In this document: positions 16,375 through 32,538 of the stretch, piece after piece
How positions within the stretch are numbered: the first letter of the stretch is position 1
Layout of the letters: each line of letters opens with the position of its first letter
Virus record (IMG/VR): IMGVR_UViG_3300037054_000363
Coordinates: 1 to 46,557 of that record
Length of the DNA: 46,557 nt
Direction: 5' to 3' (one strand)
From: a virus
The notes under the pieces: model-generated
Told to the model about the DNA's origin: nothing
The model's database searches: none
What the model saw: only the letters and a program-made list of their open reading frames with translations
Made by a program: the position numbers and the translations under genes

Positions 16375-16434
16375 GGAAGCAAAAATGCACCGAAATGCAG
16401 AACCGATAAATCAACCTAAGTATTTGATTTAATT

Positions 16435-16479
16435 TGGCTCCCCGGGATGGATTCGAACCACCGACCAACCGGTTAACAG
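16435..16479 (-). repeat. att2, 3' part of tRNA-Asn (E1/E2 junction)
   Basis: Identical over 45 bp to 1422-1466 and 32464-32508. It is the 3' part of tRNA-Asn without its 5' half, shared by the right end of E1 and the left end of E2. It shows that the two elements were inserted one after the other at the same tRNA gene in the same orientation. Confidence 0.95.
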
Positions 16480-16619
16480 TGGTTTCAAGCCGCATTATAC
16501 CGCGCCCCACTGCAACGCGCTGCGATGGCATGCACAAGCTAACCGTTTGATGTTGCGGGCATAGCCCGTGCCAACGGATAGCAGCCCGTTGCACGCCCTT
16601 GCACCCAAGCGCGCGCACT

Positions 16620-16666
16620 GGTACCCACGGGGTACCGCAGCGACCAAGTTTCTGGGGAGGGGTACC
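16620..16666. promoter_or_regulatory. GGTACC(CC) boxes at E2 left end, abutting int
   Basis: GGTACCC (16620-16626), GGGGTACC (16629-16636) and GGGGTACC (16659-16666), the last directly before the integrase ATG and covering its ribosome site. Matching direct copies lie at the E2 right end (32398-32416). The arrangement parallels the TGTGGCCCC boxes of E1. Probable arm-type sites and int autorepression site; the function is inferred. Confidence 0.7.
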
Positions 16667-17905
16667 ATGCCGACTGTGCAGCTCACCGACCGGTTTTGCC
16701 AGACCGCCAAGGCGATCGACGACCGCACCGACTGGTTTGACGAAACCGTGCAGGGCCTCGCGCTGCGGGTGACCAAAGGCGGGCATCGGTCATGGTGCTA
16801 TCACTACCGTTCGCCGCGCGATGGCAAGCGGGCGAGGGCGACGATCGGCAGCTATCCAAGCACGTCCCTCGCTGCGGCGCGCGGGAGGGCTGATGAGGCC
16901 CGCGGTCACGTGGAGGCCGGGAACGATCCTCGCCTTGTGCTGGCGGGGCAGGCGACCGCTGGCATGACCCTGGCCGGGCTCGTGACCGCGTACCTTGACG
17001 ACCTGAAGGCCCGCGGCGACGTGCGCAGCGTCGCCGAGATCGAGCGGCGTCTCGCAAAGAACGTCACGCCGCTGATCGGCGAGGTGAAGCTCGATCAACT
17101 CAGGCGCGGCGATTTCCGCACTGTCACCGATGCTATTGTGAAGCGCGGAGCCAAGACCGAAGCCGTGCGCGTTTTTGAGGATGCACGGGCCATGTGCCGA
17201 TGGGGCGTGCAGGCCGACAAGCTCGCCGCGAATCCGATGGATGGAATGGCGAAGCCGGCTGAAGTCCAGGCGAGAGACCGCGTGCTGACCGATGGCGAAA
17301 TCCGAACGCTTTGGCATGGGCTGCCGAAGGCGCTGGCGCGGTCGGCGGCCTGCCAAGCGATCGTCAAACTCTGCCTCCTGACCGGCCAGCGCAGCGGCGA
17401 GGTGGCGGGCATGGTGCCGGCGGAAATCGACCTGAAGGCGCGCGAATGGAAGATACCCGCGGCAAGGTCGAAAAACGGGCATGGGCATACGGTTCCGCTG
17501 AGTGCCGCCGCGCTCGATATCGTCAAGGCGGCGATGGCGGCGGCCGGGGAGAGCAAGGCGCTGTTCGGTCTTTCGTCGATGGCGGTTGCGCGCTCGATCT
17601 TGCGCGCGAACGAGATCAGCAAGGAACGGCCCAAGGGCCGCTTCAAAATCGATCCCTGGAGCATGCACGATCTGCGGCGCACCGTGCTCGACAACATGGC
17701 TCGGCTCGGCATCGCGCCCATGACCATCGCCGCGGTCGCGAACCATCGCAGCGTCACGGCCGGCGGTGTGACGTTCAAGCATTACGTCACCTACGACTAT
17801 GCGAAGGAAAAGCGCCAAGCACTCGACACATGGGCCGAACGGCTAACCGCAATCATCGGTGAGGGCGCGGCCAAAGTACTGCCGATGAGCAGGGGGCGGC
17901 GGTGA
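16667..17905 (+). CDS. int: tyrosine recombinase / integrase of E2
   Basis: 412 residues starting MPTVQLTDRFCQTAKAID. DUF4102-like N-terminal arm-binding domain, SAM-like core-binding domain, and catalytic domain with Arg in LLTGQRSGEV and the HxxR box HDLRRT. The third box reads ANH where GH is usual, and the Tyr lies in FKHYVTYDY. ATG 16667 is chosen over the frame opening at 16568 because the family start pattern fits and the GGGGAGGGG ribosome site precedes it. It is distinct in sequence from the E1 integrase but uses the same 45-bp tRNA-Asn core. Its TGA overlaps the next gene's GTG. Confidence 0.95.
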   Translation: MPTVQLTDRFCQTAKAIDDRTDWFDETVQGLALRVTKGGHRSWCYHYRSPRDGKRARATIGSYPSTSLAAARGRADEARGHVEAGNDPRLVLAGQATAGMTLAGLVTAYLDDLKARGDVRSVAEIERRLAKNVTPLIGEVKLDQLRRGDFRTVTDAIVKRGAKTEAVRVFEDARAMCRWGVQADKLAANPMDGMAKPAEVQARDRVLTDGEIRTLWHGLPKALARSAACQAIVKLCLLTGQRSGEVAGMVPAEIDLKAREWKIPAARSKNGHGHTVPLSAAALDIVKAAMAAAGESKALFGLSSMAVARSILRANEISKERPKGRFKIDPWSMHDLRRTVLDNMARLGIAPMTIAAVANHRSVTAGGVTFKHYVTYDYAKEKRQALDTWAERLTAIIGEGAAKVLPMSRGRR

Positions 17906-18490: not shown

Positions 18491-18706
18491 ATGACCGAAC
18501 AGAACTCACCGCGACTCGGCAGCATCGAAGCGGCGTGCAGGCTTGTCGGTGGCGACAAGCCGATCAGCCCTAGCACGTATTACCGCGGGGCGGCCCGCGG
18601 CATTTATCCGGCCCCGATCAAGGTCGGGCCGAATATCTCGCGCGTCGATCTGGACGCCTTGACTGCGAAGATCCGGGCGCGCGTCGCGGCGACGGCGGCA
18701 GCGTGA
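18491..18706 (+). CDS. AlpA/MerR-like small DNA-binding protein of E2
   Basis: 71 residues beginning MTEQNSPRLGSIEAACRLVGG. The helix-turn region (SPSTYYRGAARGIYPAP), the IKVGPNISRVDLDAL wing and the final helix fit the short winged-helix AlpA-type regulators found in the other two elements. Likely regulator or excisionase of E2. It begins a rightward operon with the Zn-finger gene 6 bp downstream. Confidence 0.75.
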   Translation: MTEQNSPRLGSIEAACRLVGGDKPISPSTYYRGAARGIYPAPIKVGPNISRVDLDALTAKIRARVAATAAA

Positions 18707-19315: not shown

Positions 19316-19584
19316 AGCCCTTGCTGACTCAGGTGATCGACGGGCTGCGACCGCAGCTCGCGCGCAACTTCCCGGTTCGGGAACGCATTGTCGTTGTCTG
19401 GGCGGTGATCGTCGAGAGCCGCGATCTCGGTTCAAGCGATGTTGTCGCCGATGATTTTCGAGAGCTCGCCGCCGAGACAGGCTTGATCGCCGACCTTGGC
19501 CGGCACGGTGTCGAAGATTTTGAGCACGTCCTGCGCGCCGGAATGTGCGGATGGAATCCTTTTGAAAAAGGTCGCGTCGCATGA
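19312..19584 (+). CDS. hypothetical protein, coupled to helicase/primase gene
   Basis: 90 residues from GTG 19312 (GTGA overlap with the upstream stop), ending in an ATGA overlap with the ATPase gene. Predicted alpha/beta, no metal or nucleotide motif. Overlaps on both sides place it in the replication operon, possibly as a loader or accessory of the ATPase. Confidence 0.6.
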   Translation: MKPLLTQVIDGLRPQLARNFPVRERIVVVWAVIVESRDLGSSDVVADDFRELAAETGLIADLGRHGVEDFEHVLRAGMCGWNPFEKGRVA

Positions 19585-21203
19585 CCAATCCCGTCGAAGA
19601 TATTTTGGCGCGCGCCGCTGCTCGGACGGGGAAACCCACGGGCAAGCCGGCGGTTAATGCTGCGCCGAATGGTGGGCACAAAATTGATCCGGCGGGCGAA
19701 GGCGATGCCGAAACCTCCGCCGACTCCAGCAAGTCCGGTAAGCCGAAGCAAGCCGATCTCCTGATCTCGCTGGCGCAAGGGGCCGCGCTCTTTCACACCG
19801 CGGACGGCACGCCGTTCGCGGACGTGAAGGTCGGCGACCACCGCGAAACCTGGAACGTGCGGAATAAGGGCTTCCGTCGCTGGTTGGCTCGGCGATTTTT
19901 CAATGAGACCGGCGGCGCTCCAAGCTCCGAGGCTCTTCAGGCGGCGCTTAATGTTGTCGAGGCGCGCGCACATTTTGACGGACCCTTGCGCGATATTTAT
20001 GTCCGCGTAGGCGGAGGTGACGGCAAAATCTACATCGACCTTTGCGACGACACTTGGCGGGCGATCGAGATAACGGGTGATGGCTGGCAGGTTCTTGCCG
20101 AACCTCCCGTTCGGTTTCGTCGGGCGGCCGGCATGAAGACGCTGCCAGAACCGACCCGCGGCGGATCAATCGACCTGCTGCGTCGGTTTCTGAACATCGC
20201 ACACGACGAGGAATTTACGCTCGTGGTGGCGTGGCTGCTCGCCACCCTGCGAAACCGCGGCCCGTATCCCGTTCTCCTCGTCAACGGCGAACAGGGGTCG
20301 GCGAAGTCAACGTTCTGTTCTCTCGTGCGATCGTTGGTTGATCCGAACAGCGCGCCTTTGCGCGCCTTGCCCCGCGAAGATCGTGATTTGTTCATCGCCG
20401 CTAACAATAGCCACGTCCTCGCCTTCGACAACGTTAGCGGGATGCAGACCTGGATTTCCGACACCTTGTGCCGCTTGTCCACGGGCGGCGGCTTCGCGGT
20501 GCGAAAGTTGTATTCGGATTCGGACGAGGAATTGTTCGACGCATCGAAGCCGACCATTCTCAACGGCATCGACTCGGTCATCACGCGGCCGGATCTGGCC
20601 GACCGCGCAATCTTCCTGACGCTCGATCCTATTCCCGATTCCGCCCGGGTGCCTGAGCAGGAATTGGTGGAGCAGTTCGACCGTGAGCGGCCGGCGATCC
20701 TTGGCGCTCTTCTAGATGGTGTTGTTCGAGGACTCCGCGACCTTTCTTCTACGCGCCTCGATCGTCTGCCGCGCATGGCTGATTTCGCCTTGTGGGCGGC
20801 GGCCTGCGAGTCTGAGTTCTGGCCGGCAGGTACATTCTCCGCCGCTTACGGTGACAACCGCGCCGATATTGTCAGCGACGTGCTCGATGCCGACCCGGTG
20901 GCGTCGGCGGTGATCTCCTACATGAAGGAGCAGGCGGAGCCGGTGGCACACACCGCGGCCGCGCTGCTGAGCCTCCTGAGCGAACTCGTTACCACGCAAC
21001 AGCGCAAGGCGAAGGGTTGGCCCGACACACCGCGCGCCTTGTCGTCCCGCCTTCGGCGGTGCGCACCGTTTTTGCGGAAAGCCGGGATATCGATTGAGTT
21101 CGGCGGCCGGGAGGGCCATGCGCGCGCCCGCATGATCCGGTTGTTCGCGGACGGTGCGGACGATGACTCCTCTGGGTGCCCTGAAACGACAAACGAGGAA
21201 TAG
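19581..21203 (+). CDS. helicase/primase-type ATPase, E2 replication protein
   Basis: 540 residues. A disordered Gly/Pro/Lys-rich N-terminus is followed by a beta-rich domain (IYVRVGGGDGKIYIDL), then a P-loop domain with Walker A GEQGSAKST starting at Gly236, Walker B VLAFDNVSG, and a sensor-like segment FLTLDPIPDS. A C-terminal winged-helix region ends the protein. This is the DUF927/SF3-like phage replication ATPase pattern, different from the VapE protein of E1 though in the same relative position. A GTCCGC iteron array begins 35 bp after its stop. It probably acts at that array as an initiator or helicase; that pairing is inferred. Confidence 0.85.
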   Translation: MTNPVEDILARAAARTGKPTGKPAVNAAPNGGHKIDPAGEGDAETSADSSKSGKPKQADLLISLAQGAALFHTADGTPFADVKVGDHRETWNVRNKGFRRWLARRFFNETGGAPSSEALQAALNVVEARAHFDGPLRDIYVRVGGGDGKIYIDLCDDTWRAIEITGDGWQVLAEPPVRFRRAAGMKTLPEPTRGGSIDLLRRFLNIAHDEEFTLVVAWLLATLRNRGPYPVLLVNGEQGSAKSTFCSLVRSLVDPNSAPLRALPREDRDLFIAANNSHVLAFDNVSGMQTWISDTLCRLSTGGGFAVRKLYSDSDEELFDASKPTILNGIDSVITRPDLADRAIFLTLDPIPDSARVPEQELVEQFDRERPAILGALLDGVVRGLRDLSSTRLDRLPRMADFALWAAACESEFWPAGTFSAAYGDNRADIVSDVLDADPVASAVISYMKEQAEPVAHTAAALLSLLSELVTTQQRKAKGWPDTPRALSSRLRRCAPFLRKAGISIEFGGREGHARARMIRLFADGADDDSSGCPETTNEE

Positions 21204-21237
21204 GAGTGAGGCCGCCAGAATGGGTAAGCAAAACACC

Positions 21238-21393
21238 GTCCGCACCGTCCGCACCGTCCGCAGCCCAACCTATCAAGGGGTTAGGGCGGACGATCGTGCG
21301 GACGCAAACGCGGACGCAAAACATACCGTCCGCAGTATCGTCCGCCATAAGTGTTTGATCTGCATACGAAAGAACGGTGCGGACGGTGCGGAC
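21238..21393. repeat. nested iteron array, GTCCGC every 9 and 12 bp (E2a)
   Basis: GTCCGC at 21238, 21247 and 21256 (9-bp steps) faces GCGGAC at 21379 and 21388 (9-bp step). Inside lie GCGGAC at 21286, 21298 and 21310 and GTCCGC at 21328 and 21340, in 12-bp steps. Outer and inner arrays share a centre near 21316-21321. One more copy lies at 21425. It begins 35 bp after the replication ATPase gene, so it is a candidate replication origin. Confidence 0.8.
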
Positions 21394-21461
21394 GCAAAAT
21401 TGCGTACCCATTCCAAGTGCGCCAGTCCGCACTTGGGCGACGGGCGAAAGGATCGCGCGGC

Positions 21462-21767
21462 ATGAGCCATAACTCACATGGCGGCTGGAGGTCCATTAGG
21501 GCGCACGAGCACCTGCTGACGGCGCTTGAGATTGAGCGACGAGACCAGGCCAATTATTGGCGCGCGTTCGACAAGCTCCCGTCGGAGGTTCGCGCATTAC
21601 TCGCGAATGCAGCGTGCAACTGGGCACCCCAGCCAGTCCTCACACAATGGCGGCGCGGGCGGACCGTTGAACAAATAGCCAAGGCCATTGAGCATTGGGA
21701 CGCGGGGCGACGAAGGCCGACACCAAGGCCCGATCTCGCCGGCAGCGGCGGTGAAGCGGCCCCATGA
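21462..21767 (+). CDS. small hypothetical protein between iteron arrays
   Basis: 101 residues from ATG 21462 (MSHNSHGGWRSIRAHEHL). The middle (YWRAFDKLPSEVRALLANAACNW) resembles a short motif found in small alphaproteobacterial proteins of unknown function, followed by a helix and a Pro-rich tail. An in-frame start at 21351 would place codons across the iterons and is not preferred. No enzyme motif. It lies between the two iteron arrays, so regulation of replication or packaging is possible. Confidence 0.55.
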   Translation: MSHNSHGGWRSIRAHEHLLTALEIERRDQANYWRAFDKLPSEVRALLANAACNWAPQPVLTQWRRGRTVEQIAKAIEHWDAGRRRPTPRPDLAGSGGEAAP

Positions 21768-21862
21768 ATGCGGCACATACCCATACCCGCAAGGTCGTGC
21801 AATCGCCTCAGCGGCGATCCCACGGCTTCCGACTAAACGCTAACAAGAGATCGCGCACTCTA

Positions 21863-21979
21863 TCCGACGGCTCCGACACATCCGACAGGACCTCCGGTAT
21901 GTACCGTACTCGCGCGCGCGTATGTACGCGCGTGACGGTGATAACCAGATTTCGCGTCGGATGTGTCGGGCGTGTCGGA
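21863..21979. repeat. symmetric iteron array, TCCGAC every 9 bp (E2b)
   Basis: TCCGAC at 21863, 21872 and 21881 faces GTCGGA/G at 21956, 21965 and 21974, all in 9-bp steps. A perfect dyad CGCGCGTA-TG-TACGCGCG (21915-21932) sits almost exactly at the centre. It lies 80 bp before the small terminase start. A packaging (cos/pac) site bound by the small terminase or a second origin are both possible. Confidence 0.8.
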
Positions 21980-22061
21980 ATTCCGGCCGGCGAGCGAGCT
22001 GAAACTTGTAGGGCCAGCCGTCAGTTCCATATAGGCTATCAAGAGGGTCGCCTTCAATTAG

Positions 22062-22655
22062 ATGCGGAAAATGATGATGAGCAAACAACCGAAACGAAAA
22101 ACGCAAAAGCAAATGCGATTGACAAAGATTGAACGCCACGAGCGGGAAATGCAGCGCCTCGCCGGCCTACTTGCCTCGACCGGCGATAGTGTGACCGCGC
22201 CACCTGAACTGTTGAATGATCCGCGCCGTGCTATCGCGTTGAGGTTCTGGACGGACCATGCGCCGCGCCTTGCCGCGCTAGGCGTCCTTGATGATCTATC
22301 CCGCCTCAATCTGTGGCTGCTAGCGGCGTATGTGAGCGAGTGGATCACAGCCGATGACGACGTGCAGCGGCGTGGCTATTCCATGATGGTGCCGACCGTT
22401 GCTGGCGGCGCGCGTGGTGCGATGCCCAGACTGAACCCGGCGGTCGATCGTAGGGACCACGCTCTGAAGGTCATCATTGAGCTGCAACGTCATTTCGGCT
22501 TTTCCGCACTTGATCGCGCTGCGCTCATGCGGCTGCGCCGCGCTGTCGACTCCTTGCCAATGTTTCCAAGTGGTGATGAGGCGCCTCGCGCATCATCTGC
22601 CACCGCCGCCGATCCTGGTCAGTGGGATCGGCTCGAACGTCCCAAGGTGAACTGA
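22062..22655 (+). CDS. small terminase, P27 family-like
   Basis: 197 residues. A basic N-terminal tail is followed by the P27-type pattern: ALRFWTDHAPRLAALGVLD, DDLSRLNLWLLAAYVSEW, then GYSMMVPTVAGGARGAMPRLNP, and a helix ending FGFSALDRAALMRL. In phages it binds the packaging site and starts cleavage with the large terminase. It is followed directly by an HNH gene (TGATG overlap), a pairing typical of cos phages where HNH and terminase act together. The start could also be ATG 22071 or 22074 in the cluster of Met codons. Confidence 0.8.
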   Translation: MRKMMMSKQPKRKTQKQMRLTKIERHEREMQRLAGLLASTGDSVTAPPELLNDPRRAIALRFWTDHAPRLAALGVLDDLSRLNLWLLAAYVSEWITADDDVQRRGYSMMVPTVAGGARGAMPRLNPAVDRRDHALKVIIELQRHFGFSALDRAALMRLRRAVDSLPMFPSGDEAPRASSATAADPGQWDRLERPKVN

Positions 22656-23071
22656 TGTCACGCCTCCGAATGCTGCGAACATCGGCTATCACGACCGTCG
22701 ATACGCGAGTCGCAAAACCGCCCGATGACTTGGAGCGTCCTGGCGCTCGCCAGCGCGGGTATGACGCCGCATGGGAAAAAGCGGCGGCCGATTTCAAGCA
22801 CGCACATCCGTACTGTCTGGGCTGTGCGGCGATCGGTGTGCGGACGCGAACCGAAGTTGTTGACCACATCATTCCGCACAAAGGCGATCGCGCCCGGTTC
22901 TGGGATAGAAAAAACTGGCAGCCGGGATGTAAGCGTTGCCATGACGGGGTTAAGGCGACACTTGAAGGGTTGTTCGAGCGGGGCACGATATCAGTTGCGG
23001 CGCTGCAGTTGAACAGCGCAACGGCGGTGTCGCTGTCGCTGCGTGCACGAGCGCTGAGGTCTGAAACATAG
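22655..23071 (+). CDS. HNH endonuclease (E2)
   Basis: 138 residues from ATG 22655. HNH motif with zinc-binding cysteine pairs: HPYCLGC, the catalytic VVDHIIPHKG, and CKRCHD. Phage HNH proteins of this size next to the small terminase are needed for cleavage at cos. The C-terminus is helical. An in-frame start at 22622 would overlap the small terminase more and is not preferred. A GGGGGGG run begins at the last base of its stop codon. Confidence 0.85.
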   Translation: MSRLRMLRTSAITTVDTRVAKPPDDLERPGARQRGYDAAWEKAAADFKHAHPYCLGCAAIGVRTRTEVVDHIIPHKGDRARFWDRKNWQPGCKRCHDGVKATLEGLFERGTISVAALQLNSATAVSLSLRARALRSET

Positions 23072-23118
23072 GGGGGGTCGAAATCCTTCCGACCTTTGGG
23101 GGCCCGGACCGTTGGGGG
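23071..23118 (+). other. G7 motif region after HNH gene (possible cos)
   Basis: GGGGGGGTCGAAATCCTT at 23071-23088, then two TTGGGGGC repeats around 23096 and 23110. Motifs of the form G5-7, T, purine-rich, TCCTT recur in E3 at 40233 and 41095. The position after the small terminase and HNH genes fits a packaging-end site. No gene is seen in 23072-23246. Confidence 0.4.
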
Positions 23119-23246
23119 CTCAGCCAGAGATTTTGTTGATTGTGTTCGTTTTTCTTTTTTTTGAGTGTCGGATCAAGACTTGGTTGGTTGCGTGGGTGTG
23201 TCGCTGAGCGCGAGCGTGTCGCGCGAATCGTGGATCACCGATATCA

Positions 23247-23768
23247 ATGTCGCCGGGCGAGGCCATCAGGAAGCTGCAGCGCGCGATCATCGTGCTGGCC
23301 GAGACCGGCGAGCCAGATCCCGTATGCGTCGCGGGATGGCTTCGCCAATTGCTCGAGGCTTCCGACGAAGTCATGTTGCACCAAATTATAGGCGTCGGGC
23401 GCGACTATCGGAGTGCCGACAAACGGTGCAGGCGCGATGATCTCCTTTGCCAGATCAAGGAACGGTATTTTTCCGACCTTTCGAACCGGGAGGTGGCGCA
23501 CCGGATCAGCGCCGAGGTCCAGCGCTACAAGGGCACCGCCTGGCAGCTTGACAGAGGCGCCCGTCGGCGCCCGCGCGGCATCAAGGGGGACTTTTTCCAG
23601 ATTCTAACATTGACGGATCGCGGACTCAGCGAGCCATCGGTTCGCCGGGCGCTGGATCACGGAAGGCCTTTGCGATTAGCCAAAGCAGGGTCCAAGGTCG
23701 ATCAGTCAGGCACCGAGGTGAAACAAAATGTTGCAGATATTGAAGGCAAAGCAGCAAAACGACGATGA
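23247..23768 (+). CDS. hypothetical HTH-like protein (E2)
   Basis: 173 residues. The helical N-terminus (GEAIRKLQRAIIVLAETGE) and central DLSNREVAHRISAEVQRYK segment could be a DNA-binding helix-turn-helix; the tail is basic. No recognised family. It overlaps the next gene by 41 bp in another frame, so one of the two boundaries may be shorter than drawn. It stands between HNH and protease genes where a phage would have its large terminase or portal. Confidence 0.55.
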   Translation: MSPGEAIRKLQRAIIVLAETGEPDPVCVAGWLRQLLEASDEVMLHQIIGVGRDYRSADKRCRRDDLLCQIKERYFSDLSNREVAHRISAEVQRYKGTAWQLDRGARRRPRGIKGDFFQILTLTDRGLSEPSVRRALDHGRPLRLAKAGSKVDQSGTEVKQNVADIEGKAAKRR

Positions 23769-24333
23769 AGTTCGGCCGATTTCGGAGAATGCAGAATTTG
23801 TGGATGCCGCCGCGCTGCTGTCGCGTCTGCAGGGCGAGATTGTGGCGGTGGATCGGCAGATCGAGGCGCTCAATGCACGTTGGTACCGCGAGCAATCCGC
23901 CAACGGCCGCGATGCCGATCCGCTGGTCACTGCCCAACAACTGCTAGACGGGGGCATTCTCGACTCCAGAACGGATGTGGAGAAAATTGACGAGTTGCGC
24001 CGGAGGCGCGAGGTCATCAACGCAGGAATGCGCCGACAGGCGCAGGTAGTTGAGAAAATCAAGGGGAAACTTTCCTTTGAAGCGTCCCGGCGCGTGCGCG
24101 ATCGTCATCGCGATGCTTTGCTTTCCCTCCTTGAGGCGACTCGTGATCTGGTCGCCGCAGCCGCTGCCGAACGTCGTATCCGCGGCGCGCTGATCGAGGC
24201 GGGTTACGCGCCGTCCGAATCGCTATTGCCGGCACCGCGACTTGCTGCTGCGCTGGCGCTGGGCGACGAAAGTTGGGTGGACTCGCCGATCTCGTTTTTC
24301 CGTCGGCAACTCGAAGAGATAGGCATCGCATGA
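23728..24333 (+). CDS. coiled-coil protein upstream of prohead protease
   Basis: 201 residues with long charged helices (LQGEIVAVDRQIEALNARW; EKIDELRRRREVINAGMRR), consistent with coiled coil. No enzyme motif. Its TGA overlaps the protease ATG (ATGA). In E3 a protein of equal length and similar helical nature (41800-42405) directly precedes the capsid gene. Coupling to a maturation protease hints at a scaffold or assembly factor, but no family is recognised. Confidence 0.6.
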   Translation: MLQILKAKQQNDDEVRPISENAEFVDAAALLSRLQGEIVAVDRQIEALNARWYREQSANGRDADPLVTAQQLLDGGILDSRTDVEKIDELRRRREVINAGMRRQAQVVEKIKGKLSFEASRRVRDRHRDALLSLLEATRDLVAAAAAERRIRGALIEAGYAPSESLLPAPRLAAALALGDESWVDSPISFFRRQLEEIGIA

Positions 24334-25103
24334 ATGCCATCGATACGGCGCGCGGTTATGCGGTGGTATGGGGCGCGCGAAGCGTCCCCATCGCCGACAA
24401 CGGCGTGACCTTCGTCGAGATGATCGCGCAAGGTGCTGCGACTTGGTACGGGGACGTCTCGGCCAACTATGGCCATGCGGCACAGACCGGATTTGCTTCG
24501 ACTACGGACAAGTCGCTGCGGATTTGGGCGGACGATTGCGGCGTCGCATTCGAATGCGATATCGCAGCCACGCTCAAGGGCGTCGGTGTCCGCGCCATGC
24601 TCGCGGATACTGGACGGGCATGGGGATGCTCGCCGCTGCTCCGAATCTATGGCCGCGAAAGCACTGGCGTCGAAAACGGTTTCCCAATCGAGCGTCTAAC
24701 GCGGTGCCGGATCGAGCATATCAGCGTTACCGATACACCTTGCTATGCGGCAACCTCAATCTGGTTGAAGTCGTCTCCGCCAGACAGATTGCGGCCGGAA
24801 ATCCGGGTTGCGCGGCGGCGATGGCATCTTAGCGTTCTTGCCGCGGAATCAAAAGTGCAAGCGCCGACGCGCCGCCGGCCCGAACCAATCCAGATCGATG
24901 GTCTTCTTAAGTCCGCCGCGTTCTTGCAGGCATCACGCGCCATGAATTATTGGCAGTGTGCCTCTCAACGAGCCGCGGCCAACCGTCAGTCGCTCGCATC
25001 GGCCGACGTCGTGACGGTCGATACGACCGAACGGATGGGAGAATCTCGCCTGATACGTGGTCGTTGCATCTATCGCAATGGCCATTGGGAGAAACGATCA
25101 TGA
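24330..25103 (+). CDS. HK97-family prohead protease
   Basis: 257 residues from ATG 24330. Family features: GYAVVWGARSVP at the start, a catalytic His in NYGHAAQTG, LRIWADDCGVAFECDI, and the Ser-containing EHISVTDTPCYAATSIW block. The C-terminal ~80 residues are an unusual basic extension. Such serine proteases cleave the scaffold and capsid delta domain during shell maturation. E2 encodes no capsid or portal, so the substrate would have to come from a helper or from another element. The start overlaps the upstream stop. Confidence 0.85.
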   Translation: MNAIDTARGYAVVWGARSVPIADNGVTFVEMIAQGAATWYGDVSANYGHAAQTGFASTTDKSLRIWADDCGVAFECDIAATLKGVGVRAMLADTGRAWGCSPLLRIYGRESTGVENGFPIERLTRCRIEHISVTDTPCYAATSIWLKSSPPDRLRPEIRVARRRWHLSVLAAESKVQAPTRRRPEPIQIDGLLKSAAFLQASRAMNYWQCASQRAAANRQSLASADVVTVDTTERMGESRLIRGRCIYRNGHWEKRS

Positions 25104-25240
25104 GATTCGAAGTGCCGATGTTAGGCCCGGTGCTTCGGAAACCATGCCGCGTGCATCGGCATGGCCTCTGGGAAGCCCGGCGGAACGGGGAGGGCTCCAC
25201 GTTCCGCCGGGCGGATATCGGCTTGCCCGTGGAAATATGA
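25100..25240 (+). CDS. very small hypothetical protein
   Basis: 46 residues (MRFEVPMLGPVLRKPCRVHR to ADIGLPVEI), with its ATG overlapping the protease stop (ATGA). No domain. The overlap with the upstream stop and only 10 bp to the terminase start make translation plausible. Confidence 0.4.
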   Translation: MRFEVPMLGPVLRKPCRVHRHGLWEARRNGEGSTFRRADIGLPVEI

Positions 25241-25250
25241 CAGTGCTTTG

Positions 25251-27029
25251 ATGGCATGGAATCTAAGTTGCAACGACTGGGAGGATCGCCTTCGCGGCGG
25301 TCGATCGCTTGTGCCTGATCTTCCGCTCGATCGATTCGAAGCGGACCAAGCCCTGAAATTCTTCAATCAGCTGCAACTGCCGGACGTTCCCGGCAAGCCG
25401 GCGTTGGCGGAGGCCGGCGGAGATTGGTTCCGCGATATTGTCGCGGCGCTTTTCGGTTCACTCGTTCCAGGCAGCAACGAGCGGCTGATCCGAGAACTGT
25501 TCATCCTGGCGCCGAAGAAATCCAGCAAAACGACTTACGGGGCCGCGCTCATGATGACGGCGTTGCTCGTGAACAGGCGACCGCGCGCCGAGTTCCTGAT
25601 CGTGGCCCCTACCAAAATGATTGCGGACCTTTCGTTTAACCAGGCGGTCGGCATGATCCAGGCCGCGCCCGAGCTTGCAAAGCGGTTTCATATTCAAGAG
25701 CATTTAAAACAGATCACGGACGCGCGGAGCGAAAGTCGCGGCGGTACGCAAGCGCAGCTCAAAATCAAGACCTTTGACACGGGCGTTCTGACCGGAGTCA
25801 AGCCGGCAGGTGCGCTGCTAGATGAGCTGCACGAGATCGCCAAGGATCCCGCCGCGTCGCGAATTATAGGTCAATTGCGCGGCGGTCTCCTACCAAATCC
25901 TGAGGGGTTTTTGGCGTTTATCACCACACAAAGCGATCAACCGCCGAGCGGCATTTTCCGGACCGAGCTAATCAAGGCGCGAATGATCCGCGACGGCAAG
26001 GCCGGCGGTGCAATGCTGCCCGTGCTTTACGAATTTCCCGAAAGCATGCTGGCCTCGGGCGAATGGCGCGATCCGGAACAATGGTGGATGGTAACCCCAA
26101 ATCGGGGAAAGTCCGTAACAATCGATCGGCTTAAGGAAGACTGGGAATCGGCGCAGCTCGCGGGCGAGGATGAAGTCTGCCGATGGGCATCGCAGCATTT
26201 GAATATTCAAATCGGGCTGACGCTCCGATCGGATCGATGGGTGGGCGCCGACTTTTGGGATACGTGTGTTGATGACACTTTGACGCTGGACACGCTGATT
26301 GACCGCTGCGAAGTGATCGTCGTTGGCGTCGACGGCGGCGGGCTCGACGACTTGATGGGAATTGCCGTTCTCGGCCGAGAGAAGACAACGCGCCGATGGC
26401 TGTTATGGTCGAGAGCATGGGCACATGCCATCGTGCTTGCGCGCCGCAAGAGCGAGGCCGTCCGGTTCCGAGACTTCGAACGTGATGGCGATCTTGCGAT
26501 TGTTTCGCAGATCGGGCAGGACGTGCTCGAAATTGCTGAGATTATCGAGCGGATCGATGCGTCGGGCCGGCTGGCGGAAAAGGCTGCGATCGGCGTTGAC
26601 CCCGTGGGTATTGGTCAGGTGATCGAAGAGCTGGCGGCCCGCGGTATTGGCGGCGAGCGTGTCGTGGGCGTGCCCCAAGGGTACAAACTTAACGGTGCGA
26701 TCAAGACGCTCGAACGCAAGCTTGCGGAAAATGCGATCGTGCACGGCGGCCGACCGCTTATGGCCTACTGTATCGGCAATGCGCGCATTGAACCGCGCGA
26801 CAATGCGGTGCTGATTACGAAAGCCGCATCTGGAACCGCCAAGATCGACCCGTTGATGGCGCTGCTCGACGCCGTAGCATTGATGAGCAAAAATCCCGAG
26901 GCGGCAATCGGTCGATCCGTGTACGAAGAAATTGCCGAGCGCGCCAAGCTGCAAGGCGAAAAGCCGAGCAGGCTAAGTCCGGCGCGGCGCGATCCTGAGG
27001 ACGAGCGGTATTGGCAGGAGCTTGCATAA
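25251..27029 (+). CDS. large terminase (E2), intact ATPase-nuclease
   Basis: 592 residues. The ATPase domain has a Walker A-like APKKSSKT at residues 87-94, lacking the usual Gly as in some P27-partner terminases, and a Walker B-like ALLDELHE. The nuclease domain begins about residue 355 with VIVVGVDGGGLDDLMG, continues with AAIGVDPVGIGQVIEE, and ends near KIDPLMALLDAV. All three acidic clusters are present. ATG 25251 is chosen over the frame opening at 25161 because the family start fits and the upstream stretch overlaps the 46-residue gene. It partners the small terminase at 22062. The gene order, with the protease before the large terminase, is unusual. Confidence 0.9.
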   Translation: MAWNLSCNDWEDRLRGGRSLVPDLPLDRFEADQALKFFNQLQLPDVPGKPALAEAGGDWFRDIVAALFGSLVPGSNERLIRELFILAPKKSSKTTYGAALMMTALLVNRRPRAEFLIVAPTKMIADLSFNQAVGMIQAAPELAKRFHIQEHLKQITDARSESRGGTQAQLKIKTFDTGVLTGVKPAGALLDELHEIAKDPAASRIIGQLRGGLLPNPEGFLAFITTQSDQPPSGIFRTELIKARMIRDGKAGGAMLPVLYEFPESMLASGEWRDPEQWWMVTPNRGKSVTIDRLKEDWESAQLAGEDEVCRWASQHLNIQIGLTLRSDRWVGADFWDTCVDDTLTLDTLIDRCEVIVVGVDGGGLDDLMGIAVLGREKTTRRWLLWSRAWAHAIVLARRKSEAVRFRDFERDGDLAIVSQIGQDVLEIAEIIERIDASGRLAEKAAIGVDPVGIGQVIEELAARGIGGERVVGVPQGYKLNGAIKTLERKLAENAIVHGGRPLMAYCIGNARIEPRDNAVLITKAASGTAKIDPLMALLDAVALMSKNPEAAIGRSVYEEIAERAKLQGEKPSRLSPARRDPEDERYWQELA

Positions 27030-29401
27030 TGGCATCACTCGAAACTATTCGCCTGATCACGATCAAAGCAACGGCCGAGGGTGTTGATCCCGCGACGCAA
27101 TCATTGAACAAGCTTGCGGCAGCCCAGGACAATGTCGCGGTCGTCTCGGACAAGTCGTCGAAGTCAACGTTGAGCATGCAGAATGTGCTCGACAAACAGC
27201 AACGTTCGCTCGACGCGAACTGGAGATCCAGCACCCAATATGGCAAGGCCGTCTCCGATCTTGAACGTGCTCATGCACAAGGCCTGACGACGCTCGATCG
27301 GCACAATCAATTGATGGGGCTGGCGGCAGATAAGTACGGCCAGGCCAGCACCACCTCGAAAGCCTTCGCCGCAGCAACCACGGGTGTCTCGGCGCAACTG
27401 ATCGCACTCTCCGCAGGCGCCGGACCGGTTGGCGTGTTTCTCGCCGCGCTCGGTCCATGGGGTATTGCGGCGGCGGTCGGACTCGGCGCGGTCGCGGCGG
27501 CGTTCAATTATGTCGCGGAAGAATCCGCTCGCATGGGGCAGAAGTCGATCGATCTTCAACAGTTCGCCGCCGTAACGGGGTTGACGGTCAGTCAGATCGC
27601 CGCTCTGCGAGCCGAGGGCGCCGAGCTCGGCATTGCGGGCGACAAAATCACGATGTCGTTTGAACGCATGACGGGGCAACTCGCTGAAGCCCATCGAGCG
27701 AATGGAACGCTTTACGAGGACGTCCGCAAGATAAACGTCGGCCTTGCTGACGAGTTGCGCCAAACGACCACGACGGCCGACGCGATCAACGTGCTGGCGA
27801 GGGCATATAAACAGGCCGGCGACGACGCAACCAAGGCCCAGATTGCCCGCGCTGCGTTCGGCGGCCGTGGCGGTCAAGCGCTCGGGCCGGTGCTCGGGCA
27901 GATCGCCGATGCTGGTAGCCTGGGCGTGCTTAGCGACAAGATGCGCTCTCTAAATGACGCGACCGATGTGGAGACAAAGCACTGGGCGCAGATGCAGGCC
28001 CAGATCGACGAGACCAACAAGCGCGCGAAGAACATCTTGGCGAGCATTTTCACCGAGGAAGGGTTGCAGATGCAACTCGCCGCGGCACAAGTGATGGAGC
28101 GGATTGCACGTGCGGCGAAGTCAATTGCCGATCAGCAGCAAGGGCTGACAGCAGCACAACGGTTCATGGTCGATCAAACACGCACCGGCGGCGTGGATAC
28201 CAGCGGCGTCGGCGTGACGATGCCGGCCGGAAACGACGCGGACGCCGCGATGATGGCGGCGCGCTTCCGACTCGGAAATCAGCTTTCCGCCGGCGTCAAG
28301 CTCTCACCGGCGGATATCCAGGCATGGAATCAGCTCGGCGACGCCTTCGCGGGCGTCGGGACCAAGGGCAAGGCGCTAGACAAGACGCTGCTTGATTTGC
28401 AGAACGAGGCCGCTGCAGCAGCAAAACAAACGAGCGAACTAAACGCCTTTCTTGGCTCGGGAGCAACAATCCAGGAAAAGCTCGCCGCAAGGCTCGCGAC
28501 GATCAATTCGCTCTACCTCGACAATAAGACCGGGGTGACAGACGTAGCCAAGGCGCTCGATCTGAAAAACAGAGCGGAGGGTGCGGCGAGGCTCGAATCT
28601 ACGATTCAGTTGGAATCGCTCCGACTTGGATTGATGGGGAATCTCGCGAATGTGTCAGAGGTGGTCACGGCGAAGCAGAACGCGATTAATAGGGCGAACC
28701 AAGAAGGGGCGAAGATCAGCGATACTCTTGCGGCGAATATCAGGCTGCAGACGCAGGCGCAGGCGGAGGCCAGCAAGCTCCAGACGTCCGCTCAATTCGG
28801 GATCTTCGATCCAACGCGGCAACTCGCCAATGCAAAGTTGGAGCTCCAAAGCCTTTTCAATGATCCGTCGATCATAAAGAGCCCGGAGAATTACGCGGAC
28901 GCATGGGCTGTTCTCACAAAACGGATGAAGGAGACGAGCGACCAAGCCGCCGTTGCGCGCTCGACCTTGCCGCAGCTCACGCAGTTCATGCTTGACGCAG
29001 GCAACATGTCGAAGCAATTCGACACGCTTGGAACGACGGGCCTCAACGATTTCAACAGCAGCTTGCTCGATTTTCAGATGGGGACAAAGTCTGCCGGCGA
29101 TGCGATGAAGGATTTCGAGGCTAAGTTCGCCCGCTCGCTCTTGAACATGATGAACCAAATGCTGATCTTGCAGCCGATCGCGGCGGCGCTGAAGGCCGCC
29201 CTCCCAGGGGGCGGAGGCGGCGGTGGATTCAATTTCATGTCGTTCTTCGGCGCCGGTGGCGGGGCGGGCAACGGAATGGCGGCGACCGGCGAGTTCCCCA
29301 TGGCACATTCCGGCGGTATGATTGGCATTGATAGCTTTCCAATGCGCGAGATCAACCCGACCGGCGGTGAGCCGGGCGGATTTGGGGACGTGCTGTCATG
29401 A
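27029..29401 (+). CDS. phage tail tape-measure protein (E2)
   Basis: 790 residues from ATG 27029 (1-bp overlap with the terminase stop). A coiled-coil N-terminus is followed by a hydrophobic Gly/Ala-rich segment (AALGPWGIAAAVGLGAVAAA, about residues 140-165). Long helical repeats come next, and a Gly-rich C-terminus (GGGGGGFNFMSFFGAGG) before HSGGMIGIDSF. This is the usual tape-measure layout, where length sets tail length. Finding it directly after the terminase, without head-tail connectors or tube genes, is odd and supports a reduced or hijacking tail role. Confidence 0.85.
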   Translation: MASLETIRLITIKATAEGVDPATQSLNKLAAAQDNVAVVSDKSSKSTLSMQNVLDKQQRSLDANWRSSTQYGKAVSDLERAHAQGLTTLDRHNQLMGLAADKYGQASTTSKAFAAATTGVSAQLIALSAGAGPVGVFLAALGPWGIAAAVGLGAVAAAFNYVAEESARMGQKSIDLQQFAAVTGLTVSQIAALRAEGAELGIAGDKITMSFERMTGQLAEAHRANGTLYEDVRKINVGLADELRQTTTTADAINVLARAYKQAGDDATKAQIARAAFGGRGGQALGPVLGQIADAGSLGVLSDKMRSLNDATDVETKHWAQMQAQIDETNKRAKNILASIFTEEGLQMQLAAAQVMERIARAAKSIADQQQGLTAAQRFMVDQTRTGGVDTSGVGVTMPAGNDADAAMMAARFRLGNQLSAGVKLSPADIQAWNQLGDAFAGVGTKGKALDKTLLDLQNEAAAAAKQTSELNAFLGSGATIQEKLAARLATINSLYLDNKTGVTDVAKALDLKNRAEGAARLESTIQLESLRLGLMGNLANVSEVVTAKQNAINRANQEGAKISDTLAANIRLQTQAQAEASKLQTSAQFGIFDPTRQLANAKLELQSLFNDPSIIKSPENYADAWAVLTKRMKETSDQAAVARSTLPQLTQFMLDAGNMSKQFDTLGTTGLNDFNSSLLDFQMGTKSAGDAMKDFEAKFARSLLNMMNQMLILQPIAAALKAALPGGGGGGGFNFMSFFGAGGGAGNGMAATGEFPMAHSGGMIGIDSFPMREINPTGGEPGGFGDVLS

Positions 29402-30153
29402 CCGCGATACAAGTTCTCCGCCGACCGAATTGCATCGAGTTTTGCACAGATGGTGCGGGTTATCTCGCGTCCAATGCTGGCGGAGTCCTGGGACAACTCG
29501 CCAGCAAGATCGTCATATTTCCAGAAATTTCGTGCGCTCTCGCGAGTCGCGGACCGGGCTATTTTTTGCCGTTTGTGCATCGAAGGATATTAGGATGTTT
29601 CGCCGATTTTGATGCATTACTCCGCGACTTTTCGGACGTGGCGCTCTGCACATTGAACGACCTTCAGGAATTTCATAACGATGAAAGCGTCGAGGACTTC
29701 GAGGTGATTGTCGGCGGTTGGTCGGAAAGTCGTGCGCGTTTTGAGACCTATAGCCTCGTATCACACGATCTCTGGGTAAAGCATGGGTTTGCGCCATGGA
29801 CGCTAATGCCACTTAGCGAGTTCTATGCGGTGCCATGGCCGGACGACGACGACATACGGGCAGTCGGCTTGTACGGAGAAGACGGCAAGATCCAGGTAGC
29901 ATTGTCCCCTGAGGGAATGCCACTCTTCATGCAGGCTCAGAGATTGCGGAAAATTCCGCGGGAAGACACACCCTGTCTCGCGGGCGGCTTCATCCAAAAA
30001 ACCGCGATCGGGAAGGGATGGGCGCAGACGGCCATTGTGTTCCACTGGAATGATAAAATGGGCGAAGTGGTCCGGCCGAACCTTCAGGAAGCTGAGGACA
30101 TTCGCTTGGCAATAACGTCCGCGTCGACAGTTGCAGGATCGGAGAGGAAATAG
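29398..30153 (+). CDS. hypothetical protein, possible Ntn-hydrolase-like fold
   Basis: 251 residues, coupled to the tape-measure gene by ATGA overlap. The first 60 residues (MTAIQVLRRPNCIEFCTDGA, then GVLGQLASKIVIFPEIS, then CALASRGPG) have the strand pattern of proteasome-like Ntn hydrolases: a TDGAGY loop, then KxxxxP and SRG. The rest is alpha/beta with no tail-fibre repeats. Proteins of this kind are sometimes found beside tail genes in alphaproteobacterial prophages. Assignment is tentative; activity and the N-terminal nucleophile are not evident. Confidence 0.5.
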   Translation: MTAIQVLRRPNCIEFCTDGAGYLASNAGGVLGQLASKIVIFPEISCALASRGPGYFLPFVHRRILGCFADFDALLRDFSDVALCTLNDLQEFHNDESVEDFEVIVGGWSESRARFETYSLVSHDLWVKHGFAPWTLMPLSEFYAVPWPDDDDIRAVGLYGEDGKIQVALSPEGMPLFMQAQRLRKIPREDTPCLAGGFIQKTAIGKGWAQTAIVFHWNDKMGEVVRPNLQEAEDIRLAITSASTVAGSERK

Positions 30154-30158
30154 AATCC

Positions 30159-30488
30159 ATGACTGATTCCGATGCCCCTACATTCGATCTACCCGAGCCG
30201 CCGCACGGCAAGGTCGAAGAGTTCACTGCTGCAGGTCGAAAGGTCGGCGAGTGGTTTGGCGCAAAATCCACCGAGCTTGTGAGAAAGGCCGAACGTCTGG
30301 GCGTTCTGACGGAAGAGTGGAACGACGATCTGACCCAAAAGATTGCCGGCGACCTTGTCGCCACCGTGAATGATCTGCGAACGCGAGGTTATCCAGATCG
30401 CAAAGTAGCAGCGTTTGAAAAGAGCGCTCTGTCGAGCTGCAAAAAATACATGGGGCGTGCGAGCAAGATCGAGGGGCTGAAAGGTTGA
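30159..30488 (+). CDS. small hypothetical protein after tail genes
   Basis: 109 residues, acidic N-terminus (MTDSDAPTFDLPEPPHG) and helical C-terminus with basic residues. No known domain. It lies 5 bp after the preceding gene and is the last gene of the particle-type operon of E2. Confidence 0.55.
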   Translation: MTDSDAPTFDLPEPPHGKVEEFTAAGRKVGEWFGAKSTELVRKAERLGVLTEEWNDDLTQKIAGDLVATVNDLRTRGYPDRKVAAFEKSALSSCKKYMGRASKIEGLKG

Positions 30489-30754
30489 CGGTCGCGGCGA
30501 GTGACGTGGGCCGGCTCAGCCGTGACGCCGCCCGCCGCCGAGCATAGCATCATCCGAAATCGCGGAACTGGCCTTGCGCAGTGGGGGCAAATCAGCGAAT
30601 CTAGGTGCGCCCGACCCGCCGTCTGGAAAACGGCGGGCCGGACGACTTGCCATCAACCGCCACGGAACGGCGACCGATGACCGAATCAAGCCTACCAAAA
30701 AACCGATCGGCATTCCGCCGTGGCCGTGGCTCCATCAACAGGGAGTCCACCACC
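30489..30754 (+). other. non-coding gap with hairpin before Tat-signal genes
   Basis: No convincing gene; an open frame from 30605 joins the downstream gene but lacks a ribosome site. A perfect 8-bp hairpin CCCGCCGT/ACGGCGGG lies at 30615-30637, a likely terminator of the tail operon. The remainder probably holds the promoter of the Tat-signal gene pair. Confidence 0.5.
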
Positions 30755-31480
30755 ATGACCACCACCACGTCACGTCGGGCCATCCTAGCCGGGGCCGCTG
30801 CGCTTCCCGCGCTCGCCACCAGCCAAGCGCTCGCCAATTTCTCGAACCTCACGCCGGATCCGATCTTCGCCGCCCTTGATGCCTACCGCCGCGCCGACGC
30901 CGCATGTGTTGCGGTCGACGGGGATATGCCGGACCATTTGATGGGCGCCCGCGACGATGCGATCGACGTGCTGTTGCGCGCCCGGCCGACCACGCCGGAT
31001 GGTCTTTCTGCTTTCACCGGCTGGACGCGCGAACAGGCCGATTGGCTCTGCCGAAATGGTTCGACCTGGGCGCCCAGCTACCTCTCGAAAGTCGCCGCCG
31101 CGATCGACGACGCGACCCGCGGGATGACTGGGCTGCAGCCGTGGTCGCCGCCCGCGTCGATCGTCACCGGGAATGATCCGATCTTTGCGGCGATCGACGC
31201 CGCGCGCGCTGCCGAAACGGTGCTAGCGAAAGAACAAGAAGACGAAAATTCGCCAAGCATGGGCGGGCTCAAAATGCTGAACGCAGCACGCCCCGCGCTG
31301 GCGCGCACCGTGCCCACCACGCCGGCCGGGCTCGCCGCATTGACGGCATTCTTCCGGGAAGCACAAGCGAACCTGCACGGTGCCGGGCCATATTTCGAAG
31401 AGGCCGAAGACAGCGAAGCGTTCGCTCGATCACTCGACGTCGCGGTGCGCGGCATGTACGGCAAGGCGGTGCGGTCATGA
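30755..31480 (+). CDS. Tat-signal protein with two repeated domains
   Basis: 241 residues from ATG 30755 (AGGGAG site). The Tat-like signal TTSRRAILAGAAALPALATS ends near ALA at residue 28. Two copies of a ~100-residue unit follow, each opening with DPIFAA(L/I)DA and containing TTPxGL(S/A)A(F/L)T, so the mature part is an internal duplication. Similar short Tat-signal proteins occur in prophage-like regions of Rhizobiales. It should be exported to the periplasm if the signal works. Its function is unknown; a surface change such as superinfection exclusion is conceivable. Overlaps the next gene's ATG. Confidence 0.65.
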   Translation: MTTTTSRRAILAGAAALPALATSQALANFSNLTPDPIFAALDAYRRADAACVAVDGDMPDHLMGARDDAIDVLLRARPTTPDGLSAFTGWTREQADWLCRNGSTWAPSYLSKVAAAIDDATRGMTGLQPWSPPASIVTGNDPIFAAIDAARAAETVLAKEQEDENSPSMGGLKMLNAARPALARTVPTTPAGLAALTAFFREAQANLHGAGPYFEEAEDSEAFARSLDVAVRGMYGKAVRS

Positions 31481-32034
31481 GCAGCACCACATCACGCCGC
31501 GCCGTCCTGGCCGGCATCGCCGCCAGTCCCGCCCTAGCCGCGCCAGCGCTCGCCAGCCATGCCAGCGATGCCCGCTTGCGGGAACTTTGGGCGCAATACC
31601 TTGAGCACCTTGCAGCCGATCAGGCCGCGTGCCTTGCGATGGCCATGGCACGAGCAGCATACGACGCTGAGGAGCCACCTTGCCCGCCTAACGTGCTGCC
31701 CTTTCATCACTCCGAAGCGTTCCGGCCGCTGTGGAAAAAGCGCGGCCTCGATCGGCTCTTTGCCGCCTGGAACGCCGCAGGCGAGCGGGCAGATGAGATT
31801 GTGAAGGCTATCCGCGAAGAGGAAGCCGAAGGGCTATTTGGCATCGGCGTGAAGCTCGCCGCCCTGCCAGTCGACGGCAATGCTCGTGACGATGCCCCCG
31901 ATCACGAGGACGCGATCGTATCAGCGCTTAGCGAAATCGACCGCATGATCGGTACCACCTTCGTTTCATCGTTCTCGGTGCACATACACAACGACGATGA
32001 GTCCGGGGCCGAAGAGACGGCGGTGCAGTCATGA
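31477..32034 (+). CDS. Tat-signal protein, second of pair
   Basis: 185 residues, ATGA overlap with the first Tat gene. The signal TTSRRAVLAGIAASPALAAP closely resembles that of its neighbour; the mature part is acidic and helical without the DPIFAA repeat. Two neighbouring genes with near-identical signals but different bodies suggest a signal module spread by recombination. No enzyme motif. Stop overlaps the next gene's ATG. Confidence 0.65.
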   Translation: MSSTTSRRAVLAGIAASPALAAPALASHASDARLRELWAQYLEHLAADQAACLAMAMARAAYDAEEPPCPPNVLPFHHSEAFRPLWKKRGLDRLFAAWNAAGERADEIVKAIREEEAEGLFGIGVKLAALPVDGNARDDAPDHEDAIVSALSEIDRMIGTTFVSSFSVHIHNDDESGAEETAVQS

Positions 32035-32321
32035 GCACAGTCAAAATTCTCGACCGACCGCCGGCCGGATGGCACGCGCTTGACGTGATGAAGTCCGGAA
32101 GCGGCAAATGGAATTGGAATGCGCTCATGATCGACGTGCACCCCGACGAACTGAAGCACTGCCGCTGCAAGATCGCGTTCCTCTACGTCCATCCGAACGA
32201 ATACAAGCCGGATGGAAGCCGCACGGCTCAAGAGGCGTGGGTCCGCGTGCCCGGCAAACATCGCAACAAGGAAGCCGCCTGGAACGCCCTGCACGACATC
32301 ATCAGCACGCCGGGCCATTAG
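32031..32321 (+). CDS. small hypothetical protein, last gene of E2
   Basis: 96 residues, ATGA overlap with the upstream gene. Starts MSTVKILDRPPAGWHALDVM; mixed alpha/beta with many aromatic residues and a CRC motif (HCRCKIAFLYVHPN). No known family, no signal peptide, so probably cytosolic unlike the two Tat proteins it is coupled to. A strong terminator follows. Confidence 0.6.
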   Translation: MSTVKILDRPPAGWHALDVMKSGSGKWNWNALMIDVHPDELKHCRCKIAFLYVHPNEYKPDGSRTAQEAWVRVPGKHRNKEAAWNALHDIISTPGH

Positions 32322-32353
32322 ACCACGCGGAGTGTGACCCAGCCCGCGTCCGA

Positions 32354-32393
32354 AAAGCCCGCCCGGTGAAGGAAGCCGGGCGGGTTTCCTTTT
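32354..32393 (+). terminator. strong Rho-independent terminator at E2 right end
   Basis: AAGCCCGCCCGG (32355-32366) pairs with CCGGGCGGGTTT (32376-32387) with one G-U pair, followed by CCTTTT. It ends the E2 cargo operon before the att site and tRNA. Confidence 0.8.
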
Positions 32394-32397
32394 GGCC

Positions 32398-32416: not shown

Positions 32417-32427
32417 GGCAAGTTTAA

Positions 32428-32443: not shown

Positions 32444-32463
32444 TCAGAAACCCTTGATTTTGT

Positions 32464-32538
32464 TGGCTCCCCGGGATGGATTCGAACCACCGACCAACCG
32501 GTTAACAGCCGGTTGCTCTACCACTGAGCTACCGGGGA
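32464..32538 (-). tRNA. tRNA-Asn (anticodon GTT)
   Basis: 75 nt including encoded CCA. Read on the minus strand: acceptor TCCCCGG pairs with CCGGGGA, D arm GCTCAGTGGTAGAGC, anticodon arm ending in CTGTTAA (GTT), T arm GGTTCGAATCC, discriminator G then CCA. It is the only intact copy of the sequence whose 3' part is repeated at 1422 and 16435, so it is the integration target of E1 and E2 and is restored by the att repeat. Confidence 0.97.

Follow-up and report, generated by a model that had tools for sequence, protein, structure and literature searches.

A 16.0-kb integrated element with prohead protease, terminase and tape measure genes and no detectable portal or capsid, probably a phage satellite

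Results

Boundaries and gene content of E2

IMG/VR virus record IMGVR_UViG_3300037054_000363, a 46.6-kb stretch of alphaproteobacterial character that we analysed over its whole length (46,557 nucleotides; hereafter the window), contains three integrated elements, E1, E2 and E3. Our subject is E2, which carries genes for a prohead protease, a terminase and a tail tape measure protein (TMP) and in which no portal or capsid gene could be recognized. The 3' part of a tRNA-Asn gene is a 46–50-bp sequence with copies at 1418-1421, 16434 and 32460-32463, and the 46-bp copies at 1421, 16434 and 32463 are exact repeats of each other. These copies delimit E1 (~1421-16434, 15.0 kb) and E2 (16434-32463, 16.0 kb), which lie in tandem in one tRNA gene. 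E3 stands outside this array, starting with its own integrase at 33904 and continuing past the end of the window (33904-46557 seen), and the integrases of the three elements differ. Since E2 is bounded by 46-bp direct repeats, the genes it lacks are not merely beyond the range inspected in the initial annotation of this DNA.

Between its attachment (att) sites E2 encodes, in order, an integrase, an AlpA-like protein, a primase-like ATPase, the terminase small subunit (TerS), an HNH endonuclease, two small proteins designated 23247 and 23728, an S78 protease, the terminase large subunit (TerL), the TMP, the products of 29398 and 30159, two proteins with Tat-signal-like N-termini, and the product of 32031 (Table 1). 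E2 thereby shows the general features of a phage satellite, namely a size of ~7-20 kb, att sites, an integrase, a replication gene and an incomplete virion set. The order from TerS to TMP and the coordinates given in the initial annotation were right, apart from refinement of two starts: the protease begins at an ATG that overlaps the stop of 23728 (ATGA), and the TMP at an ATG that overlaps the TerL stop (one-base overlap, TGATG or similar). Another ATGA overlap joins the TMP to 29398. These start/stop overlaps give the junctions the look of a functional operon, and the open reading frames (ORFs) are coupled and undamaged with a coding-like pattern of codon-position GC, in agreement with the earlier statement that all of the genes appear intact.

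Table 1. Features of E2 (positions in the window)
Feature	Position	Strand	Basis
attL-like copy, 46-bp tRNA-Asn 3' core, E1/E2 junction	16434..16479	.	exact repeat of 32463 and 1421
Tyrosine integrase	16568..17905	+	PF00589 2.1e-16, PF13356 8e-19
AlpA-like small DNA-binding protein, excisionase/regulator candidate	18491..18706	+	sequence resemblance only; Pfam and PHROGs without match
Primase/helicase-type P-loop ATPase (replication)	19581..21203	+	weak phrog_1156 0.019; homologues L104-L111, 45-63%, in small elements
TerS	22062..22655	+	PF05119 3.4e-9, phrog_83 5.3e-13; 43-47% identity to TerS of L119/L121/L024
HNH endonuclease, cos-packaging type	22622..23071	+	phrog_2323 2.1e-26
173-aa protein	23247..23768	+	no family match; poor model, pLDDT 39
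201-aa helical-hairpin coiled coil, scaffold-like candidate	23728..24333	+	AlphaFold2; position as coiled-coil genes before protease/capsid in relatives
S78 prohead protease	24330..25103	+	PF04586 6.4e-9; His49, Ser101 at family-conserved His/Ser
TerL, HK97-type	25161..27029	+	phrog_9 4.5e-110, PF20441, PF03354
TMP, 790 aa	27029..29401	+	phrog_9483 1.5e-9 near N-terminus; Tape_meas_lam_C 4.3e-4 at C-terminus
251-aa protein coupled to TMP, tail-associated candidate	29398..30153	+	23% homologue in G366 element, 7e-6
Small conserved satellite gene	32031..32321	+	41% identity, 1e-23, to L165 gene between TerL and integrase
attR-like core inside tRNA-Asn (32464-32538, minus strand)	32463..32508	.	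direct repeat

We screened E2 with Pfam, PHROGs and locally built profiles for portal, capsid, adaptor, closure, tail-terminator and major tail protein (MTP) genes. The E2 ORFs scanned against PHROGs gave no match to a portal, capsid, connector or tube, and the local profiles gave zero matches, so that portal, capsid, connector, tail terminator and tube are all undetectable by these screens between the att sites. The only capsid gene in the window belongs to E3 (42399-43454). The observation with which this work began, a protease, terminase and TMP in a gene order that skips portal, capsid, connectors and tube, is thus confirmed.

Relatives of the E2 terminase

Approximately 150 relatives of the E2 TerL were collected from IMG/VR and annotated with iterated profiles seeded on phages Bcep176 and Rivra, in which the order is TerS-TerL-portal-protease-capsid-connectors-tube-TMP. 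Among the 126 relatives that bear a portal, the distance between TerL and the portal start is at most 800 bp in 87% and at most 3 kb in 98%. The E2 TerL falls in a clade (clade A) with those of L024, L120 and L121 (bootstrap/SH-aLRT 100/99; FastTree 0.977), near which lies clade B (100/100), made up of L028, L135, L136, L138, L145, L132 and L146. Profile annotation of the contigs detected no portal beside TerL in any member of either clade, and the clustering of the no-portal label on the TerL tree exceeded every one of 500 shuffles. Many of these contigs are short, several of them extending only 0.6–3.3 kb past TerL. Other portal-less contigs (L045, L051, L056, L059, L064, L170 and similar ones) were set aside and excluded as satellites because they are truncated or have fused or divergent head genes.

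Clade-A TerL proteins differ by 17-37% of residues, and within the clades pN/pS (nonsynonymous relative to synonymous differences) in TerL lies at 0.12-0.24 between closer pairs, synonymous divergence being close to saturation, which indicates old lineages under purifying selection. In the regions at the best TerL matches across 397 isolate genomes of the order, all 13 that we examined were ordinary prophages with portal, protease and capsid, indicating that the lack of a portal is special to clades A and B. A scan of genome contigs with the E2 TerL found one distant Sphingomonas prophage only. The view that the omission is no recent accident is thus supported by two long-diverged clades in which no portal was detected and which are under purifying selection. 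Relatives that hold the missing genes and would point to a fresh deletion were not found, with two caveats: L146 of clade B has a capsid, and L110, related to E2 through its primase only, has a portal and capsid. These two cases indicate that capsid loss or exchange did occur within the group, but long ago. Of the genes expected of a complete or recently decayed siphophage prophage, portal, capsid, connectors and tube were not found in E2; in its TerL relatives of clades A and B no portal was detected, and a capsid in L146 only.

Gene arrangement in the relatives

Two elements of clade A, each represented by a pair of near-identical contigs, carry a TMP directly or closely upstream of TerS, as opposed to its place after TerL in E2. 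L119/L120 (pieces of one element) read TMP-155 aa-141 aa-TerS-TerL, and the overlapping L121/L165 read TMP-TerS-TerL-131 aa-166 aa-homologue of E2_32031-integrase. L024 reads 112 aa-TerS-TerL-120 aa-helix-turn-helix (HTH)-integrase. An assignment of its 112-aa protein as a tail assembly chaperone (TAC) was dropped, as the PHROGs match was to an unknown family only. No protease was seen in clade A. BLAST aligned only a short stretch of the clade-A TMPs with that of E2 (0.008). The nearest relatives of the L121 TMP (42-45%) are in L226 (a 58.6-kb contig) and L227 (on the same contig as L149), which are complete-looking phages with capsid and adaptor genes; at 658 residues relative to ~684 in L226, the satellite version is about 4% shorter.

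In clade B, at least three elements, L028, L136 and L138, have a coiled-coil gene, the protease right after it, in some cases small genes, and TerL, with no capsid between. L028 continues into apparent chromosomal genes that include ligase-like sequence. Clade B differs from E2 in its type of TerS and in its replication gene (AAA_25), and no TMP was seen there. L146 (1-4058) has capsid, protease, a 147-aa gene, a cold-shock-like gene and TerL in a row. TerL of L028, L136, L138 and L146 is 57-61% identical to that of E2 (57% for L146). L146 appears to be the unsplit form of a module that is divided among other elements.

The relatives of E2 by primase include L104, with a TerL of another type (phrog_38), L109, with TerS-TerL, and L110 (5394-14120), in which the E2-type primase is followed by a portal, a fused protease-capsid, HNH, a TerS-like gene and TerL, resembling the capsid-forming phage-inducible chromosomal islands (cf-PICIs). 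As to the prospect that relatives would share the E2 gene order, we found its exact form in no other element, and what does recur are the pairings of protease with TerL and of TMP with TerS and TerL. The combination of TMP, TerS and TerL with neither portal nor capsid is thus found beyond E2, in another order.

Individual E2 proteins

The E2 protease aligned with its family profile across the full S78 domain. The third conserved position is less clear, being a His with a Glu adjoining, and because of this, despite the match at His49 and Ser101, protease activity is plausible and unproven. Hidden portal or capsid folds in 23247-24333, considered in the initial annotation, were approached by structure prediction with partial success. 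The single-sequence AlphaFold2 model of 23728 (predicted local distance difference test, pLDDT, 69) is a long hairpin of helices 2-58 and 81-157, and Foldseek matched it to generic coiled coils only (best E-value 0.27), with no capsid or portal. The model of 23247 was unusable, and with 173 residues the protein is too short for a portal. Their sizes exclude both proteins as portal or HK97 capsid, and for 23728 the predicted secondary structure leads to the same conclusion. A scaffold role for 23728 is a guess from gene position. Its homology to the coiled-coil protein E3_41737 or to those of clade B was unsupported by BLAST and HHalign; the E3-type and L136-type coiled coils had a weak match to each other (probability 71%).

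IMG/VR scans with the E2 TMP and with the att core found no relatives, and BLAST found no homology between the TMPs of E2 and E3. No TAC or hub was recognized beside the E2 TMP with PHROGs. In isolate genome G366, the homologue of 29398-30153 (L112 14488-15165) directly precedes a tail-fibre-like gene within an element that bears an integrase; judging from this resemblance, the E2 product may be a tail-associated protein. Farther along, the adjacent genes 30605-31480 and 31477-32034 share the same twin-arginine-like N-terminal signal (TSRRAxLAG). The G580 element (L115 and L116 joined, 24094-24801) encodes a similar protein that has a Tat-like signal and a PDPIFA motif, and these proteins possibly form a shared cargo family.

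Neighbouring elements E1 and E3

Besides a primase-helicase, a gene in the TerS position and TerL, E1 encodes a head scaffolding protein (5698-6468, phrog_206 3.7e-24) and a DUF2793 tail-fibre-like protein (4359-5621). Neither capsid nor portal was recognized in it, making E1 another partial morphogenesis set. Its TerL (12837-14272) appears to be split between two overlapping ORFs, one for an ATPase half with a match to phrog_7579 and one for a nuclease half with a match to phrog_27743, both of these PHROGs being of half length.

A solitary HK97 capsid gene (TIGR01554 2.7e-36) and a gene for a 701-aa TMP are present in E3, whose part within the window lacks protease, TerL and portal. Its integrase and capsid are 83% and 77% identical, respectively, to those of L118, a 6.6-kb contig of isolate genome G808. 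The L146 capsid is 77% identical to that of E3 and 77-83% identical to the lone capsids of the G808 and G580 elements, in which the capsid follows an E3-type coiled-coil gene with no protease or TerL in the stretch seen. Against 50,697 phage records the E3-type capsid had partial matches of ~31% only. Taken with the layouts of clades A and B, these elements show that capsid, protease, TerL and TMP are re-sorted among small elements and that such partial sets are recurrent and conserved.

Discussion

Origin of the partial gene set

We consider an integrated phage satellite, as opposed to a decayed prophage, the probable identity of E2; its own cos-type terminase would package E2 DNA into a helper-derived head, and its TMP would join a helper tail. 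Several observations weigh against this. No helper was identified, and the host side is represented by the 46.6-kb record only. The E2 TMP is without a close homologue, with no match among 50,697 phages and partial matches only (22-33%) in six of 385 alphaproteobacterial genomes. None of the other elements showed the order TerS-HNH-x-x-protease-TerL-TMP, and L146, a clade-B relative, has a capsid adjoining its protease and TerL. Given the short contigs of the relatives, a distant portal is possible for each taken singly, which makes any one absence weaker than the pattern of the group.

Some of these points would be expected if E2 were the remnant of an HK97-like siphophage prophage that had shed its portal, capsid, connectors and tube through deletion and recombination and was heading to extinction: its order is unique in our data, L146 keeps a capsid, HNH, TerS, TerL, S78 protease and TMP are all ordinary siphophage protein types, and nearly all other TerL relatives are in complete phages. 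We nevertheless regard such a history as unlikely. With genes that are intact and translation-coupled, the deletion would need an exact fit at the TerL/TMP junction; the replication module and precise att ends have been kept at satellite size; and a neighbouring portal is absent from two well-supported, long-diverged clades in which TerL is under purifying selection. That the TMP and protease serve mainly as weapons, mis-assembling with the tail and procapsid of an invading phage and so blocking it, with transfer secondary or absent, seems very unlikely to us. Interference with tail assembly is described as a strategy of satellites, PICIs included, and of defence (PMC11364771; Rta protein, PMC12987554), but by itself would leave unexplained both the presence of TerS, HNH and TerL in the same operon and the TMP-TerS-TerL pairing in relatives.

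Two further readings give the co-resident elements a part. The resident satellites might share one particle, with the capsid from E3, protease, TerL and TMP from E2, scaffold, tail fibre and terminase from E1, and the rest from a helper. Complementary absences suggest this, as E3, cut off by the end of the window, shows a capsid but neither protease nor TerL in its visible portion, E2 a protease and TerL without a capsid, and E1 a scaffolding protein (phrog_206) without a capsid, and L146 joins an E3-type capsid to a protease and to a TerL related to that of E2. However, identity between the E2 protease and the clade-B proteases, which are related to the partner of the E3-type capsid, is only 23-27%, the three integrases differ, E3 is outside the tandem array, and unrelated satellites are often co-resident by chance; we judge sharing of this kind highly improbable. 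A broader version, which we find quite doubtful, is that an L146-like capsid-protease-TerL module was split into capsid-only elements (E3, G580, G808) and protease-terminase elements (L028, L136, L138, and E2 with its TMP) that complement each other, a chimeric particle being built from two or three satellites and a helper tail.

A possible cycle for E2

On the satellite reading that we favour, E2 would excise and replicate by means of its own integrase, AlpA-like protein and primase. Its complete-looking cos-type terminase suggests an ability to select and cut its own DNA, and TerS, HNH and TerL together would select, cut and package it. Since E2 has no recognizable portal or procapsid genes, a helper phage, or possibly another satellite in residence, would have to supply shell and portal. 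Both the S78 protease and the coiled-coil protein may enter this foreign procapsid and process or remodel it, and the E2 TMP may replace that of the helper, giving a chimeric tail with the tube and other tail proteins of the helper. Of the interpretation in the initial annotation, the part on an omission that is no recent accident is supported; action on a foreign procapsid and control of a helper's tail length we retain as proposals. With the L121 TMP only ~4% shorter than that of L226, swapping of identity or compatibility could be the purpose of these TMPs just as readily as length control.

Comparison with known satellites

A close parallel in gene content, with no sequence homology implied, is to the PICI-like elements (PLEs) of Vibrio cholerae (phage ICP1; PLE11, PLE1 and PLE4), which like E2 have a TMP of their own without the rest of the tail, including tube or sheath (PMC12987554). 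For the tail step proposed here they offer a direct precedent from experiment. PLEs are reported to encode TMP, TAC and BhuB and to form chimeric tails 10 nm shorter, PLE11 virions containing the satellite TMP and hub and excluding those of the phage, and deletion of tmp in PLE11 reducing transduction by 96-99.9%; in 2026 they were presented as the first satellites for which substitution of their own tape measure had been demonstrated (PMC12987554). Unlike E2, they rely on a lytic phage with a contractile tail and also bring TAC and BhuB, and E2, unlike PLEs as described in that source, has a protease and a TerS/HNH/TerL set (PMC12987554).

The cf-PICIs resemble E2 as small integrated islands with HK97-type cos packaging genes, and HNH, TerS and TerL are all present in E2. 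A cf-PICI by definition has a capsid and a portal of its own; E2, in contrast, has neither by Pfam, PHROGs and our local profiles. Some cf-PICIs are shown with putative tmp genes (PMC12987554 Extended Data Fig. 10).

Single head proteins have been described in other satellites, such as Ccm of SaPIbov5 (PMC8569155), CpmA/B of SaPI1 (PMC5644958), Sid of P4 (PMC7552001) and TcaP of PLE (PMC10945586). In Staphylococcus aureus pathogenicity islands (SaPIs), a capsid homologue (Ccm of the cos-type SaPIbov5, PMC8569155) or a scaffold competitor (CpmB of SaPI1, PMC5644958) redirects the helper procapsid, which may serve as a model for the E2 coiled coil and protease and for the E3 capsid. The cited accounts of these SaPIs describe no prohead protease or TMP (PMC8569155, PMC5644958), and E2 differs in carrying a protease without a capsid. 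A literature search joining phage satellite, protease, terminase large subunit and portal found no paper in the collection searched. What sets E2 apart is its combination of protease, TerL and TMP in the absence of a capsid, and we have so far found no second example of its exact arrangement.

Together with its relatives, E2 suggests an independent occurrence of TMP-bearing satellites in alphaproteobacteria, where the TMP is paired with a full TerS-TerL motor and, in E2, also with a head protease though not with a shell. On this view a protease and a scaffold would be enough for a satellite to mature or remodel a head taken from another virus, and a ruler of its own would let it pick its tail partner. 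That capsid, protease, TerL and TMP are re-sorted among related small elements also provides a natural experiment in the exchangeability of head and tail parts.

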